Shown here in pieces: positions 57,897 through 63,704 of a stretch of 64,000 nucleotides of DNA (position 1 is the stretch's first letter; every line of letters starts with the position of its first letter). The notes under the pieces were generated by a model. It worked only from the letters and a program-made list of their open reading frames with translations. It was not told the DNA's origin and ran no database searches. Made by a program: the position numbers and the translations under genes. This DNA comes from Propionispira arboris (GTDB lineage Bacteria; Bacillota; Negativicutes; Selenomonadales; Selenomonadaceae): assembly GCF_900109225.1 (NCBI RefSeq), contig NZ_FNZK01000006.1, positions 1 to 64,000 on the forward strand, in the 5' to 3' direction.

Positions 57897-58526
57897 TTAA
57901 ATGACTTCAAAACTGATGATTTTTTCGAAAGCCACATATTCCGTACTCGCCTGTGTACCAATTTTTTTACCAAGGCCGTAAGCATGTGTATCCGTATTGG
58001 CATGGCCGTTGTACCATTTCACAAATGCTGATATTTCATCTGATGAAAGCTGGTAATCATGATCACTTGAATCGATTAAGGTAACACGTAAAAGTTTTTT
58101 ATCATCAGTTATATCATGTGGTAAAATATCACCTGTTTCATCAATATCAATTGCTTGAAAAGTATAATTTGCCGTACTATCCATATCTTCAATAACAACA
58201 TAATGTTCCTTATTACTTAAATTTTGTATATCACATGCTAAAATATATGATGTTCTGTCTGAACTTGTTTTTTCTGAGAAGTTCACTGTCTTTGTTCCAT
58301 CAATATAAACATCAACTGAACCACTATGATTCGGATGTCCCTGGATTAAAATTCTTAATTTAGTTCCTACAAATTTAAATTTAATTTTGCCATCTATTGC
58401 CCAAATAATATCATAGTTACTATCTAGAATCCATGTACCATCTGTATAAGTAAATCTCGAGTCAGAACACTTATATCTTTTCCACCCGGCTTCAGGCGCT
58501 GTTAATATGTCTCCTACTGTTGCCAT
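57897..58526 (-). CDS. phage-associated surface-type protein with shared C-terminal module
   Basis: 209 residues. N-terminal half (about 1-130) is beta-rich: GWKRYKCSDSRFTYTDGTWI, KLRILIQGHPNHSGSVDVYI and YVVIEDMDSTANYTFQAIDID resemble carbohydrate-binding or SGNH-associated jelly-roll domains. From about 143 to the end (LLRVTLIDSSDHDYQLSSDEI ... FEKIISFEVI) is a 65-residue module shared with the next gene upstream. The ATG at 58526 has GGAGG eight bases upstream. Last gene of the phage block; likely a tail fibre accessory or a cargo (morphon) protein. Confidence 0.65.
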   Translation of the reverse strand: MATVGDILTAPEAGWKRYKCSDSRFTYTDGTWILDSNYDIIWAIDGKIKFKFVGTKLRILIQGHPNHSGSVDVYIDGTKTVNFSEKTSSDRTSYILACDIQNLSNKEHYVVIEDMDSTANYTFQAIDIDETGDILPHDITDDKKLLRVTLIDSSDHDYQLSSDEISAFVKWYNGHANTDTHAYGLGKKIGTQASTEYVAFEKIISFEVI

Positions 58527-58547
58527 TTTCCATTCCTCCAAATATTT

Positions 58548-59399
58548 TTATTTACCTACTGTTAATACTTCAAAGCTGATAATTTTTTCAAAAAATAAAT
58601 ATTCTTTGCTTGTCTGCTCACCAATAATCTTGTCAAACACATAATATGCCGTGCCTGTGTCAACTGTTCGATTACACCATGTAACAAAACTAGTAATTTC
58701 ATCATCAGAACATTGATATTCACGTTCGCTGGAATCATTCAGCGTAATCCGTAATAAATTATTAGTTTTAATGGGCACAGGATCAAAGTTTTCTGTCCAC
58801 CGAGCAATATTAGAAATTCTAAATTCATCAATATAACCTGGGAAGAAAGAGTTATCAGCCACATCATATCCAATTGTTATATTTGCTGATGGAGCTAATA
58901 TTGATAATGGACTTGTCGCAGTAGAAGTTAAAACCCCGTTTTTAAACCCGTAAAACGTATTACCATTTCTTACTATAGCATAATGGTTTAATTGATTTAA
59001 ATTTTGTGTACCAAGATTAAATCCATTTAATATATCCCAAGAAGAGCCATTTGATGTCAAGCATACATAGTTTGGTCCCCCATCGAGCGATGCTTGTCCG
59101 ACAACAAAAGGTGGATATTTTCCTTGCATAACAGATAAAACTCGTGATGTTTTATCAAAGCTTGTTCTATACTCCCACCAATCAATTGTAAAATCACCAG
59201 AACCAAAATTAAAATCGGTAGAATTTGGGGTTGTTAAATAGCTACTACTGCCATCCAAATATAAACTTTTTCCACCAAACTTACTTTGTACTGACGATAT
59301 GGCCGAGCTACCATTAGCCGTCCAAACTTTTCCCGTTTCATCTTTAAAACTATCATCAAAATGTAATAATGATACTGTATTTGTGTCAACTTGATACAT
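58548..59399 (-). CDS. LamG/concanavalin-like phage tail-associated protein with shared C-terminal module
   Basis: 283 residues. Residues about 8-205 form a LamG-type jelly roll (VSLLHFDDSFKDETGKVW, FGGKSLYLDGSSSYLT, FTIDWWEYRT, GYIDEFRISNIARW), as in many phage receptor-binding or tail-fibre proteins. The C-terminal module begins LLRITLNDSSEREYQCSDDEI and ends FEKIISFEVL. The ATG at 59399 has GGAGGA upstream; the longer frame is without a site. It sits 21 bases before the paralogous-tailed gene. Binding of cell-surface glycan is a plausible role. Confidence 0.75.
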   Translation of the reverse strand: MYQVDTNTVSLLHFDDSFKDETGKVWTANGSSAISSVQSKFGGKSLYLDGSSSYLTTPNSTDFNFGSGDFTIDWWEYRTSFDKTSRVLSVMQGKYPPFVVGQASLDGGPNYVCLTSNGSSWDILNGFNLGTQNLNQLNHYAIVRNGNTFYGFKNGVLTSTATSPLSILAPSANITIGYDVADNSFFPGYIDEFRISNIARWTENFDPVPIKTNNLLRITLNDSSEREYQCSDDEITSFVTWCNRTVDTGTAYYVFDKIIGEQTSKEYLFFEKIISFEVLTVGK

Positions 59400-59688
59400 A
59401 ATTATTTCCTCCAAATATTTTTTATTTTCACGTATATTTTTTAAACTAATATTTTTCATAAGGTCAATATAATTAAGAAACTCTACCTTCATTTTGTTTT
59501 TCCTGTATCTTGACCTTCAACTTATATTTTTAAAACTCTTCGAACACTATTTATAAACAAAATGCTGGCCAGCGTTGTTTATAAGGTCATCCATAAGCAT
59601 GCATTCTTATCTTTACCAAAAATAGTATTCATTTCTATGTTTAGTATCGAACACATGTTCTATTATAACACCTTTATAGAAATAAAAA

Positions 59689-59726
59689 AAGCGGTAGACA
59701 CTACATTTCCATAGTATCTACCGCTT
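59689..59726 (-). terminator. intrinsic terminator after the lysis genes
   Basis: AAGCGGTAGA / TCTACCGCTT with inner TACT/AGTG pairing; seven T residues follow on the minus strand. It separates the lysis genes from the two surface-type genes; 59400-59688 holds no gene I can support. Confidence 0.88.
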
Positions 59727-59742
59727 AAATTTAATAAATATT

Positions 59743-60237
59743 TTATTTTGCTACAACATACCCCAAAGATACTGCCGCTATAGCTTCCCAGATATTTTTT
59801 TGTGTTTTTAGCTTACTCTGCAGCTTTTCCTGCTCCTGCTCGTATTTCTTGAAGGATTGATTCGCATTCTGTAATTCTTGATTGGCTATCTGCAAGGATT
59901 GCTGCGCTGCTGCTGTTTGAACTTTGAGCGTCGCTAACTGCGTTTGCAATGTTTGTATTTGATTCTGCGATTCGGTCAGCTGTTGTTTGAGCAGCTCGAT
60001 TTGACTGGTCAAGATTGACGACTGTTCGCTCGCTGTCGTCAAGTTCTGACTGGACTGACTTAATAGCGTCTTCAGCTTTTCGTTGTTGCTCTGCAGCTGT
60101 ATCAAGTTGTTCTGTAACGTCATTAGTTGTTGCTCTGTTATTTGGTACGTCTCGGAACAAAAACCAACCGAGGGCGATAAGAATAATGGCAGCAAGAATA
60201 TAGCCACCGATACGTATATAAGTTTTAGTTTGTTCAT
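59743..60237 (-). CDS. exported coiled-coil protein, spanin-like (frame 2 of an overlapping pair)
   Basis: 164 residues. A signal peptide (hydrophobic 5-20) leads to Cys27 (SVGFCSET), which is not a canonical lipobox because Phe precedes it. Residues about 33-142 are a nearly uninterrupted coiled coil with regular Leu/Ile heptads (QQLMTLQNNLIQLQSNNEKL and similar). The end is a short hydrophobic segment (NIWEAIAAVSLGYVVAK). An exported N-terminus, long coiled coil and hydrophobic tail are what a spanin that bridges inner and outer membranes would have. It overlaps the next gene over 425 bases in another frame. ATG at 60237 shares its ribosome site with that gene. Confidence 0.65.
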   Translation of the reverse strand: MNKLKLIYVSVAIFLLPLFLSPSVGFCSETYQITEQQLMTLQNNLIQLQSNNEKLKTLLSQSSQNLTTASEQSSILTSQIELLKQQLTESQNQIQTLQTQLATLKVQTAAAQQSLQIANQELQNANQSFKKYEQEQEKLQSKLKTQKNIWEAIAAVSLGYVVAK

Positions 60238-60241
60238 TCAA
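59813..60241 (-). CDS. membrane-anchored coiled-coil protein, Rz (i-spanin)-like (frame 1 of an overlapping pair)
   Basis: About 142 residues from a TTG at 60241 (AAGGGG eight bases upstream; a GTG at 60250 lies inside that site). N-terminal membrane anchor of about 20 residues (YIRIGGYILAAIILIALGWF) followed by a polar, Ala/Gln/Ser-rich coiled coil (EQQRKAEDAIKSVQSELDD, DRIAESNTNIANAVSDAQ) and the ending EIRAGAGKAAE. This is the topology of Rz inner-membrane spanins. It is read in a different frame from the exported coiled-coil gene starting four bases later. Which of the two is translated, or both, needs experiment, but both look like protein. Confidence 0.65.
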   Translation of the reverse strand: MNEQTKTYIRIGGYILAAIILIALGWFLFRDVPNNRATTNDVTEQLDTAAEQQRKAEDAIKSVQSELDDSERTVVNLDQSNRAAQTTADRIAESNTNIANAVSDAQSSNSSSAAILADSQSRITECESILQEIRAGAGKAAE

Positions 60242-60279
60242 TTTTTCCACCCCTTAAAATAATTTGTACAAAGTCAATA

Positions 60280-60891
60280 TTACTCAGCCTTAGCATTTTC
60301 TTCATATACAGGCACACCATATGCCGATAAATCTAATCCAGTAACATAATCAAATGTATTATCTGCTCTATTTGCATATCCGACAGCATACTCTCCACAA
60401 CTTGCAGCTGATGCATACTGTTCGTGGAACAAATCCCGTACTGTTGCCAACGACCTAAGATCATAGCCACGGTCTTGCCGACGCTGCAAAAACCTCGACA
60501 CTATATAATGACTGGTAGGGCACCAAATGCCGGCATAAATCGTGCAACGACTATCATCAAGCGTTTCAACCTCCTGCAATGTATCCACATAAGTTGCAGT
60601 GTCTTCTGCTAGTAAAGCAATTTGCGCCTCTTGGCCTTCCGGTGAATCAAGTAACTGCGCCAACGAGTCAAGTTCTCCAGCTGCCTCGATATCGCTATAA
60701 GTTCGACCCGTATAATAATCGCCGCCTGGTATCGAAGATAGTAACGACTCTGCTCTGCCGCCTTCCCATTGCGAACAACCTATACTTGGATAATCACCGG
60801 CTGTGCTGCATGACACCGCATTAAATCCACCTTCAACGCCAGTATTTACAAGCCCTTTTGCTATTTCTCTAGCTAATTCTTCTTTTGTCAT
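60280..60891 (-). CDS. putative phage endolysin (lysozyme/transglycosylase-like)
   Basis: 203 residues, no signal peptide. VNTGVEGGFNAVS with Glu20 and GDYPSIGCSQWEGGRAESLL near 33-52 resemble the catalytic E...S-I-G-x-x-Q-W pattern of lysozyme-like phage hydrolases. The rest (about 90-170) is helical. Its place between small membrane proteins and the spanin-like pair supports a role in peptidoglycan degradation. The family was not identified with certainty; a structural or tail-tip protein is the alternative. GGGGAAA precedes the ATG. Confidence 0.6.
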   Translation of the reverse strand: MTKEELAREIAKGLVNTGVEGGFNAVSCSTAGDYPSIGCSQWEGGRAESLLSSIPGGDYYTGRTYSDIEAAGELDSLAQLLDSPEGQEAQIALLAEDTATYVDTLQEVETLDDSRCTIYAGIWCPTSHYIVSRFLQRRQDRGYDLRSLATVRDLFHEQYASAASCGEYAVGYANRADNTFDYVTGLDLSAYGVPVYEENAKAE

Positions 60892-60919
60892 TTTTCATTT
60901 CCCCATTTCATCTCTTATT

Positions 60920-61123
60920 TTAAATTGATAAATCTTCTGGATACGCATACCGATCGCCCTCATGCGAATCGATATGCAGCACATGCCCATCAAAACTCAC
61001 AAATCCCTCGAAGGAATTTTTTAAGCTTTCATTTGGGCAACTGCTTTCTTGAAAGATTGCCCGAATTTTATTGCGCTCTGTTTCTGTGAGCGGCTTACCG
61101 CCTTTAATTACTGTGATTATCAT
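60920..61123 (-). CDS. small phage protein of unknown function
   Basis: 67 residues: MIITVIKGGKPLTETERNK, a helix, then GFVSFDGHVLHIDSHEGDRYAYPEDL. Soluble and acidic. It overlaps the end of the holin-like gene by 20 bases and precedes the endolysin candidate by 28 bases, so it is part of the lysis unit. I do not recognise the family. GGTGAT lies upstream of the ATG. Confidence 0.65.
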   Translation of the reverse strand: MIITVIKGGKPLTETERNKIRAIFQESSCPNESLKNSFEGFVSFDGHVLHIDSHEGDRYAYPEDLSI

Positions 61124-61286
61124 TTATATCACCGCCTCTCTTTTCTGCTTTACCGCCCATATATCCGACAAGACCGGATGCAATGGACATCGCCAGCTCA
61201 TTCATTCCTAAAAAAATCGCCGCAATCAGCGCTGCAACCAGCCCGATTCCGACGATTTTTTCTGTATTCAGTTTTTCACCCACCAC
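61104..61286 (-). CDS. small holin-like membrane protein
   Basis: 60 residues. One or two hydrophobic segments (IVGIGLVAALIAAIFLG and AMSIASGLVGYMGG) and a charged tail (KAEKRGGDINDNHSN). Size, topology and position just before the lysis enzyme fit a holin. The start is a GTG at 61286 after GGGAGG. Similar short proteins in Firmicute prophages are annotated as holin only by analogy. Confidence 0.6.
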   Translation of the reverse strand: MVGEKLNTEKIVGIGLVAALIAAIFLGMNELAMSIASGLVGYMGGKAEKRGGDINDNHSN

Positions 61287-61299
61287 ACATCACCTCCCT

Positions 61300-61593
61300 T
61301 CATGGCTCTTGCTGCGGTAATTGTAAAAACTTATGATATATCTCTGTAATGGCTCCATTCCCATCTAAAGCATGATATGCATTATACATAATAGTTACGT
61401 TATCCACCGCATAAAAAGGCGCCCATCCTTTCTCACAATAATGATTATAATTTTGCAAGATACGGTCTCTTAGGATTGCTCTTACCCCATCTCGTATTGC
61501 TACCTGTTTTTTAAATTCCATCATCAATCTTGCTGATGCAAGCGAAAACATGCCTGTTACCGCCCAAAAGATTACACTCTCCCAAAATGTCAT
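61300..61593 (-). CDS. phage membrane protein, holin/antiholin-like
   Basis: 97 residues. N-terminal membrane segment (VIFWAVTGMFSLASARLM), then a soluble part RDGVRAILRDRILQNYNHYCEKGW and YNAYHALDGNGAITEIYHKFLQLP. This arrangement recurs in Firmicute phages next to lysis genes (LRDR...GW...YxALxGNG...LP). It is 13 bases before the holin-like gene and may act in the same step. Confidence 0.65.
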   Translation of the reverse strand: MTFWESVIFWAVTGMFSLASARLMMEFKKQVAIRDGVRAILRDRILQNYNHYCEKGWAPFYAVDNVTIMYNAYHALDGNGAITEIYHKFLQLPQQEP

Positions 61594-61620
61594 TCACATC
61601 ATCTCTTTTCATTTTATTTT

Positions 61621-63693
61621 TTAAATTATAAAGGCATAACCCTTAAATGGATTAACCGTCATGTTTACCTTTATTGATTTTAGATAGGAATCGTACATTT
61701 TGCCGTATACTGTTGTTTGGGTGTGACCATATCCATTAGGAAATGAAATTCCTGTCACTATTTCTCCTGGACTAACATTATAGTAATAATTAGTCGGATT
61801 ATGGTCAGCCCACGCGACTCGAATTGAATACCCGTTTGGATATAAATTACTATAAACAGTTAAATAACTAGCATTTGCATTTGCATATGCTGAAGAAATT
61901 ATTTGAGTAATCTTAGTTGGATAAGTTGGAAAACTAGCAAAAGCGGAAGAAGTCGGATTTATACTATAAAATACTAGAGTATCTGAAATGTCGTTGCCAA
62001 TATACACCGATACATCCAAAGCCTTGCCTTTAGTGCCATTTGCCGGGTTCATTACATCTCCCCATTGGGCTTCGGTTATTGCATTTATCACGGCCATTGT
62101 CATTCCAGACGTTGCAATGTTTGTCTTATCTATGGTGTGCCAAGCGTTTGCTGAAAAAGCTGACCAAGTTAATCTACCGTCGAAACTTACCAATATTCTA
62201 AGGCTCTTGCCAGTTGCCACTAAATTTTGTATGGACAAAATGTTTTTGAGATTTATATTGGTGAAATCGGTAGTGGTTATTACAGCATGATCTCCGTAAT
62301 TCGGAACCATTGCACAAGGTGGTGTGCCGACGTTCAATATCTTTGGAGGACACCAGAACTCACCATCAAAACCGCCGTCATAGTCTCGAAACAACCTTTC
62401 TGCAGTTGTCCGGCGGGCTTCTTCCTTAAATACTTCGAAGTCCAAGTACTCAAGACAGCCATTGGAATGCTTGATATTAAGCCAGCACTTGTTGACACCC
62501 TTAAGCCACTGACCGGACGACAAATTAATGTCAATGGCAGTTATGTCCAATTCCCCCGCTGAATAATCAACTGCTATCGTTCCGTTTATAAGCAATTGAT
62601 AAGAACCTCTAAAGTCTGTTCTCCCATAGGTTTTGGCGTGGACATTAACAATTGCAGCCCGGTATTGATGCGTCGCTGTTACCAGCAAAGTATAATGATT
62701 GGACGCATAAGAATTTTCTTCTAATACTTTTAGATCTATCCCCATGAAATTTCTCAACAATCGGGGAACTGAGTCAGATTCTCTGGTGTCTTCCAAGAAG
62801 CCAAGATACTTATCAACTTTTATTGAGCCAGGTTGGTCTTCAACGAAAACACCGGGAGCATCATGCACATTTGTCTTGCCAAGCTCCTCTTTCTCGAAAG
62901 CCATCCCAATCAAGCTTATTGTTGATCTCTTGCCGAATTCTTGAGTTGCCTCCATGCCAATACAGCCGGAACCACCGTATAATCCCGCTTTGTTGCAAAT
63001 TTCATAAGAAAATTTGTTATTTGGAGTTTGAAAGGCTTTATTTGCTTCTATGAGAAAAGCTTTATTGCTCTTCGGCAATACTACGGAGAATTTGTTTTCT
63101 TCTGCATTTGCTACAGCTAAATTAGCTTTGTTTGGTAAATATGACTTAATTTCTTCGGAAGCCTTCCCCAAATGGGAAGATGGAATCAATATATCTGATT
63201 CCATCGGAATTATTTCGTTTCCTCCAAAATTATGTGGTTCTGATACTCCCCACGAGAGATTGGAGATATTTGGCCAACCATCCAACACCCCAGACAAAAC
63301 ATACAATCTATATCCTAAATATGCAGTATTAATTTCAAGGTGCATTTCCATCTCGAAATTTGTGTCCTTTACCCCATTGGCGTTAGTTATATTACTTTGG
63401 ATGTCTATCCAAGAACTCCCATCCCAAGCCTGTACTTTAAAACTAGCAAAACTTCTATAAATCATGGTCATATAATTAACCAAAATAGGGGAGGAATATA
63501 TAATGGAGACCCAACGATTCCCCCCCGCTCCTCCAAAACTTAGTCCAGCCCCACGGTTGGAATCAAAAGCCATGTACGGCATTGATTTGGCATCATAATA
63601 AGAACTGGCTGCGATAGTGAAGGAATAGGTAATTCCCTTGAAAACCAGGCTTCCTGCGGCAGCAGTTGCAACATTTGGTATAAATGATATCAT
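61621..63693 (-). CDS. large phage tail-tip / receptor-binding type protein
   Basis: 690 residues, no signal peptide. The N-terminal region (about 15-160) resembles a discoidin/F5-8C fold: MPYMAFDSNRGAGLSFGG, NRWVSIIYSSPILVNYMTM, SFKVQAWDGSSWIDIQSN. The middle (about 230-470) is beta-rich with no clear family, and the C-terminal 150 residues contain repeated Tyr/Thr/Ser-rich strands (PTYPTKITQIISSAYANA, NYYYNVSPGEIVTGISFPNG). Such composition fits a baseplate or tail-fibre protein. AAGGAGG precedes the ATG. It is 11 bases downstream of another structural gene that leaves the window. Confidence 0.7.
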   Translation of the reverse strand: MISFIPNVATAAAGSLVFKGITYSFTIAASSYYDAKSMPYMAFDSNRGAGLSFGGAGGNRWVSIIYSSPILVNYMTMIYRSFASFKVQAWDGSSWIDIQSNITNANGVKDTNFEMEMHLEINTAYLGYRLYVLSGVLDGWPNISNLSWGVSEPHNFGGNEIIPMESDILIPSSHLGKASEEIKSYLPNKANLAVANAEENKFSVVLPKSNKAFLIEANKAFQTPNNKFSYEICNKAGLYGGSGCIGMEATQEFGKRSTISLIGMAFEKEELGKTNVHDAPGVFVEDQPGSIKVDKYLGFLEDTRESDSVPRLLRNFMGIDLKVLEENSYASNHYTLLVTATHQYRAAIVNVHAKTYGRTDFRGSYQLLINGTIAVDYSAGELDITAIDINLSSGQWLKGVNKCWLNIKHSNGCLEYLDFEVFKEEARRTTAERLFRDYDGGFDGEFWCPPKILNVGTPPCAMVPNYGDHAVITTTDFTNINLKNILSIQNLVATGKSLRILVSFDGRLTWSAFSANAWHTIDKTNIATSGMTMAVINAITEAQWGDVMNPANGTKGKALDVSVYIGNDISDTLVFYSINPTSSAFASFPTYPTKITQIISSAYANANASYLTVYSNLYPNGYSIRVAWADHNPTNYYYNVSPGEIVTGISFPNGYGHTQTTVYGKMYDSYLKSIKVNMTVNPFKGYAFII

Positions 63694-63704
63694 GATTTAC
63701 CTCC

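Follow-up and report, generated by a model that had tools for sequence, protein, structure and literature searches.

Phages of the Negativicutes carry a pair of genes read almost end to end in two frames, for which the best explanation (probability of about 0.68) is a two-protein, spanin-like lysis module with a non-lipidated o protein held in the outer membrane by its C-terminus. The pair was studied in the window, i.e., the whole 64,000-nucleotide stretch of Propionispira arboris DNA that was analysed, and its sequence features suggest that it probably breaks the host outer membrane at lysis. The two genes, hereafter i and o, comprise the following features:

59813..60241, minus strand: i-frame gene, with a TTG start at 60241 and a stop at 59813 (142 aa); predicted N-terminal transmembrane (TM) helix followed by a helix of ~105 residues; i-spanin-like
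59743..60237, minus strand: o-frame gene, with an ATG start at 60237 (164 aa); signal-type N-terminus, helix of ~129 residues and C-terminal hydrophobic tail
59816..60237, minus strand: dual-coded stretch of 422 nt, in which o is in frame +1 relative to i; purifying selection on both frames in relatives
60247..60255, minus strand: Shine-Dalgarno-like, purine-rich AAGGGGTGG, upstream of the TTG (60241-60239) and the ATG (60237-60235); similar layout in relatives
60154..60237, minus strand: o signal sequence, residues 1-28, ending in VGFCS (estimated boundaries)
about 60208-60143, minus strand: i TM helix, encoded by the same DNA as the o signal sequence (estimated boundaries)
59746..59793, minus strand: C-terminal hydrophobic tail of o, IWEAIAAVSLGYVVAK, in the single-frame part; proposed outer-membrane anchor

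A sequence-only reading of this DNA had described two open minus-strand frames starting at TTG 60241 and ATG 60237, four bases apart behind one ribosome site, with about 425 bases of dual coding. Both frames are open as claimed, the starts are 4 nt apart downstream of one purine-rich site, and the stretch read twice amounts to 422 nt, i.e., 99% of i and 86% of o. The two start codons are fused (TTGAATG) with AAGGGGTGG just upstream, so that a single ribosome-binding site could serve both and the two proteins would be made from the same mRNA; the start region is weakly folded (z +2.2). A close relative of the genome is Propionispira raffinosivorans DSM 20765 (class Negativicutes), with 94% identity in i. 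A second pair is present in the window's own genome (G000:C29:121812-122307), its i protein being 74% identical.

Genes located beyond the window end on the same strand code for tail, tape-measure, major head, portal and terminase proteins, and then for a primase and a helicase (10 ORFs scanned); the structural and terminase genes place the window locus at the lysis end of a prophage. Three neighbouring elements complete this picture:

59689..59726, minus strand: intrinsic-terminator-like hairpin of 17 pairs followed by a T run, directly after the o stop
60280..60891, minus strand: putative endolysin of a family without a name (203 aa, invariant YPSxGxSQWEG), immediately upstream of the pair; lysin role suggested by position
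61104..61286, minus strand: weak holin candidate (60 aa, one hydrophobic segment), matching the holin family phrog_6384 at E 0.13 only

Between 59400 and 61700, three terminator-like sites were found vs 1.4 expected, the stem at 59689..59726 being the longest by far. The putative endolysin ORF ends 38 nt from the i start, and members of its family also lie upstream of the pair in several other genomes (L063:386-988, L027:3383-3964 and others). The window member and that of L063 had no Pfam match at E 0.001, 14 members of the family had no PHROG match at 0.01, and the family profile had no PDB match below E 0.06. When the upstream ORF of each locus was taken as the longest one of at least 90 aa ending near the start, such an ORF was found at 91 of 96 loci, with a gap of at most 60 nt in 59 of the 91. 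Lysin-like motifs (six simple patterns) occur in 65 of these 91 ORFs, 11 of the 65 belonging to the YPSxGxSQWEG family. Wall-hydrolase Pfam families were matched by 16 of the 20 upstream ORFs scanned, the window's own upstream ORF having no family match, and six hydrolase families are represented upstream of the pair (Amidase_3, Amidase_2, GH25, VgrG3-like C, Peptidase_M15_3, and Glucosaminidase). That unrelated lysins adjoin one and the same pair points to a role in lysis, and two paired genes next to an endolysin in an apparent lysis cassette are the arrangement expected of spanins.

Other genes in the vicinity are of phage type. A 97-aa protein with an N-terminal hydrophobic segment (61300-61593, minus strand), which matches phrog_4105 and phrog_4257, both of unknown function, sits between the tail-side gene and the lysis genes and is a possible holin or lysis regulator. 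Past the terminator, the genes at 57897-58541 and 58548-59492 (minus strand) match Laminin_G_3, CE2_N and baseplate PHROGs; these structural or lectin-like genes resemble tail-fibre genes and are located beyond the lysis cassette.

The pair recurs throughout the class. Loci L001-L119 include 30 and then 60 places taken from among the matches listed for an o profile built from 15 sequences; duplicates and o frames under 350 nt were removed. Among these loci, 97 distinct pairs were obtained in which the o ORF is accompanied by an ORF in the same relative frame that independently matches the i profile; counts made after L117 was set aside use 96 pairs, because the start of L117 was not called. 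In these 96 pairs, the median overlap is 371 nt (range 320-542), which corresponds to 85% of o and 99% of i. By heuristic start calls, several of which are doubtful (e.g., L047, L055, L083), the starts are offset by +4 in 47 pairs (ATGNATG, TTGNATG and similar) and by -2 in 13 (mostly ATGTG). The o proteins fall into 72 clusters when grouped at 70% identity and into 50 when grouped at 50%, and pairwise identities have a median of 28% for o and 21% for i; recent common ancestry is therefore no explanation for the open frames.

Whether homologues conserve only one of the two frames, with stop codons in the other, had been proposed as the refuting test. For the most part they do not: the 97 distinct pairs keep both frames, and on the other side three genomes have a stop in the o frame while i is open (G070, locus L102; G089, locus L133; and G111, seen from tables only). 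Among 20 further loci taken from i matches, 15 keep both frames, four are decayed or cut (L131, L132, L133, L146) and one is false (L136). The 350-nt filter removed L119, a 60-aa o fragment without i, and the broken or short L069, L102 and L110. The i proteins of L006, L088, L104 and L107 and a fragment at L039, all weak matches to the o profile, were left uncounted; L008, L010 and L011, which lie inside long ORFs (613-796 aa) and have no o-profile match, were left out, and L158 is cut by a contig end. The 60-aa ORFs that match only the C-terminal part of o, at L119 (G060:C1:1249644-1249802) and at G068:C6:906861-907019, are possibly remnants or separate tail-only genes; L119 lies ~3.3 kb from an intact pair in G060.

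Across 380 Negativicutes genomes representing 102 genera, the 15-sequence o profile matched in 102 genomes and 53 genera. A 52-sequence o profile matched in 128 genomes and 59 genera, reaching E 1e-10 in 97 genomes, its weaker matches being partly generic coiled coils; the i profile matched in 121 genomes and 54 genera, some matches again falling in long unrelated ORFs. The profiles were built from 15, later 52, of the same sequences that were searched, so matches to those very sequences are expected. In a wider sample of 398 Bacillota genomes, the o profile matched 20, of which four are Negativicutes with full-length matches and 16 lie elsewhere with weak ones (best E 1.5e-10); the four of these 16 that were opened (L122-L125) are unrelated coiled-coil proteins without a comparable overlapping pair. 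Within the Bacillota, the phylum covered by the profile searches, the pair was seen only in Negativicutes among the genomes searched, which points to the outer membrane. IMG/VR contigs hold further members with both frames. Some genomes carry multiple copies, with four on G040:C6 and at least four places in G057.

The predicted architecture of the two proteins suggests a bridge between membranes. AlphaFold2 models of the single chains consist of a helix at 3-29 and another at 37-141 for i (mean pLDDT 88.8), and of helices at 3-19 and 35-163 for o (mean pLDDT 90.9), and hydrophobicity has a period of 3.5, that of a coiled-coil heptad, in both. The TM scale values and hydrophobicity scales applied to i and o are those that we take to be the accepted ones. 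On this assumed TM scale, the i helix passes over 17-21 residues in 88% of the 96 pairs, and the models give i the N-terminal TM helix (type II) and periplasmic domain of an i-spanin. On the one hand, i would be inserted into the inner membrane by this helix and extend its long helix into the periplasm. On the other hand, o would be exported without being lipidated, and its long coiled coil would end in a hydrophobic tail that is embedded in, or docked on, the outer membrane. Pairing of i and o through their coiled coils would link both membranes and, once the endolysin has removed the wall, the complexes would collapse or cluster and thereby disrupt or fuse the outer membrane, by analogy with what is proposed for lambda Rz/Rz1.

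The o tail, which is conserved along with the overlap, lies in the extension of o past i (70 nt in the window, usually 55-85 nt); in 95 of the 96 pairs it includes a hydrophobic run that is 11-16 residues long. Insertion of a helix of 12-16 residues in the outer membrane is unusual, and the inner membrane is an equally conceivable docking site, since 68% of tails score below zero, i.e., pass, on the assumed scale over 12-14 residues. A topology in which the o tail sits beside i in the inner membrane, as in a u-spanin-like arrangement, and leaves the outer membrane untouched (the pair acting, e.g., as a lysis regulator or holin partner) is an alternative, albeit an unlikely one. It is favoured by that same score, by the basic flanks of the tail (84 of the 96 o proteins end in K or R) and by the existence of short TM helices. 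However, none of the 96 tails passes the scale over 17-20 residues, compared with 88% for the i helix, and two divergent o lineages have replaced the hydrophobic tail by a beta-strand-like, aromatic-rich one suited to the outer membrane. These tails occur in L114 and its relative L150, both ending in GYKFKF, and in L143; L114 is the same protein as L149. Pfam gave no support for the beta-strand-like tail, and no relatives of L143 were found in viral contigs. Such a tail may be a small outer-membrane anchor.

In place of the usual lipid, o would rely on a C-terminal anchor in the outer membrane, as no Lol route that would deliver lipoproteins there is known in the host. LolA was found in none of 31 Negativicutes genomes, its control being positive in six of 14 genomes, and LolB likewise in none of the 31, with a control positive in one of 14 (E. 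coli only); the absence of LolB alone thus says little. Absence of LolA and LolB from Negativicutes is also reported in a published study (PMC5007114), and a study of Veillonella parvula (PMC10665443) states that neither an outer-membrane lipoprotein nor a Lol homologue was identified. With no LolA or LolB found in these 31 genomes of the class, a lipid-free anchor is what would be expected of a spanin there.

The o protein could nevertheless be a conventional o-spanin, with Cys27 (GFC-S) lipidated through an atypical lipobox and a substitute for Lol, and with the C-terminal tail serving as an interaction segment only; this we regard as distinctly improbable. The sequence-only reading had noted that the second protein lacks a canonical lipobox, and the window o indeed has VGFC-S near its signal end and no lipobox. 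A strict lipobox string occurs in four of the 96 o proteins, three times inside the hydrophobic core and once in a plausible position (L103), which is not what an outer-membrane lipoprotein of the o-spanin type would have. A looser GxC near the end of the signal sequence is present in 42 of the 96, four of the 42 having S or G before the Cys, as lipidation would favour, and an atypical lipobox, AWAC, has been verified earlier (PMC6139136). Against lipidation, 37 of the 42 have T, F, I, Y, L, M or W in that position and 54 of the 96 have no GxC at all; several relatives, L007 and L009 among them, lack a Cys in the part of the signal region that follows the core. Signal peptidase II normally refuses T, F, I, Y, L, M and W before the Cys. 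The failure to find LolA or LolB in the 31 genomes weighs on the same side.

The Cys itself is probably selected. The i residues encoded over it are often W-x-L-F, and where i has W-x-L, the codon for Leu together with the following base yields a Cys in o in 31 of 34 cases, vs a background of 46% NTG for all i Leu codons that precede a T; this background includes the W-x-L sites and the sequences are related, which makes the comparison a lead. A disulfide or a signal-peptidase I site is probably a better reason for this selection than a lipid. By a rough pattern that includes the signal-end Cys, 81 of the 96 pairs have a periplasmic Cys and 15 do not; in the survey of Kongari et al. (PMC6139136), at least one was present in 507 of 528 spanin pairs. 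Outer-membrane attachment by lipidation of Cys27, a point that the sequence-only reading had listed for checking, is thus not supported, with no lipobox in the window protein, one sensible case among 96 relatives, several relatives without the Cys and no LolA or LolB found in 31 genomes.

Selection acts on both frames, and the dual coding of i and o is genuine. When o codons are shuffled among synonyms, i stays open in a median of 0.8% of shuffles across the 96 pairs, with a mean of 3.6 stops (0.2% for the window pair, L001); when i codons are shuffled in the same way, o stays open in a median of 5.4%, with a mean of 1.9 stops (8.4% for L001). Substitutions at the three o codon positions, counted in 13 sequence pairs, amount to 0.11, 0.13 and 0.20 per site in the overlap and to 0.12, 0.08 and 0.35 per site in the o-only tail. 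The third-position rates of 0.20 and 0.35 imply that this position is constrained where i is also coded. The comparison of synonymous change in both frames, which the sequence-only reading had called for, likewise returned purifying selection in each. It used 13 pairs for o and 12 for i, each sequence being used once, from 31 ungapped candidates. Observed o-synonymous changes are less harmful to i than random changes would be (Fisher p 1.3e-13; 11 of 13 pairs at p<0.05), and the same holds for the effect of observed i-synonymous changes on o (Fisher p 2.6e-9; 7 of 12 pairs at p<0.05), the remaining 2 of 13 and 5 of 12 pairs not being significant singly; in the i test of L093/L097, the o-frame stop that was counted was read as o's own stop, i running past o there. 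The alternative that one of the two frames is no gene, and stays open by chance or through codon bias, has next to no probability and is refuted at the sequence level. Codon bias is a feature of coiled-coil genes, and the 96 pairs include 17 frame instances in which an antisense frame has no stop throughout the overlap. However, none of the 96 pairs has an open third sense frame, the shuffles and both directions of the selection test rule out a chance open frame, and membrane segments and heptads are conserved in both proteins.

Database searches, which had been recommended for each protein separately, returned marginal matches to PHROG spanin families and no named spanin above a trusted cut-off. 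Pfam gave both window proteins sub-threshold matches only, mostly to coiled coils, and gave the 52 i members no family at 1e-5. The best PHROG spanin match reached E 4.7e-4 for i and, for o, 3.2e-6 in one of 52 members, possibly through coiled-coil similarity. The spanin families phrog_4349, phrog_739 and phrog_89 are weakly similar to i or o, a marginal likeness that may reflect coiled-coil composition. The best match to i was phrog_18860, of unknown function, which 9 of 52 members matched with an E of at most 1e-5. In NCBIfam, o matched SMC-like and other coiled-coil families and i had two weak matches, and a PDB profile search with o returned generic, tropomyosin-type coiled coils. Searches of annotated phages by tblastn found no match for the window i and o (E 0.1), for L092, L062 and L013 (E 0.01) or for L114 (E 1). 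A distant DNA search of 58000-63700 found nothing but short matches to cyanophages, which fall in the gene 58548-59492 downstream of the pair, and Rfam reported nothing at the gathering threshold in 59300-61800. No report of spanins in Negativicutes was found in the open-access literature searched.

A broader proposition, about which our judgement is evenly balanced, is that Negativicutes phages possess a lipid-free spanin class in which o is held by a C-terminal hydrophobic helix (by beta strands in some lineages), and whose co-linear coiled coils have been encoded by the same ~370 bases, behind one ribosome site and fused starts, since early in the class. If true, spanins can do without a lipid anchor, the exit of phages from diderm Firmicutes whose outer membranes lack Lol-sorted lipoproteins would be explained, and a handle would be available on whether Negativicutes truly have no outer-membrane lipoproteins. 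The pair is also an extreme and deep example of one sequence that encodes two proteins, in which the same bases specify an export signal and a TM helix, and some 100 natural variants of it are available for study.

Such systems would be discarded by current surveys, which demand or filter for a lipobox. Indeed, a spanin is defined as an i protein with an N-terminal TM domain and a lipoprotein o (Kongari et al., PMC6139136), and a survey of 2025 dropped o-spanin candidates without a lipid box (PMC12596118). By their own statement, the criteria of Kongari et al. (PMC6139136) do not extend to proteins of other topologies or anchors. The suggestion that this is a spanin-like pair in a phage of an outer-membraned Firmicute is supported on several counts: the topology and the coiled coils fit, the pair follows a putative lysin and precedes a terminator, and it was not seen in the Bacillota genomes searched outside the Negativicutes. 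A lipidated attachment to the outer membrane is not supported. Accordingly, the pair is described as probably acting like a two-component spanin and is not filed as one, because the lipoprotein feature was looked for and not found.

For the comparison with known systems, the features of the lambda, P2 and T1 genes are, beyond the passages cited, those that we take to be established. Like lambda Rz/Rz1, the Negativicutes pair consists of overlapping genes after an endolysin, with a coiled-coil i protein bearing an N-terminal TM helix and a partner in the +1 frame, both being exported and proposed to bridge the membranes. Unlike Rz1, which is a lipoprotein, its o has no lipobox and bears a C-terminal hydrophobic tail; moreover, this o begins at the i start, covers 99% of i, overruns it and is larger than i. 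Among embedded pairs, about 70% have an o start that lies 0.4-0.5 of the way along i (PMC6139136). The overlapped pair LysB/LysC of P2 is similar in that o is in the +1 frame and extends past the i stop, but the Negativicutes overlap includes the segments that target each of the two proteins to a membrane as well as almost the whole of i, and its o is no lipoprotein. As in the u-spanin gp11 of T1, o alone combines a signal for export with a periplasmic domain and a hydrophobic segment at the C-terminus. However, gp11 unites a lipoylation signal at its N-terminus and a TM domain at its C-terminus (PMC6139136), whereas o has neither by the tests applied here, and a second protein, i, is conserved alongside it.
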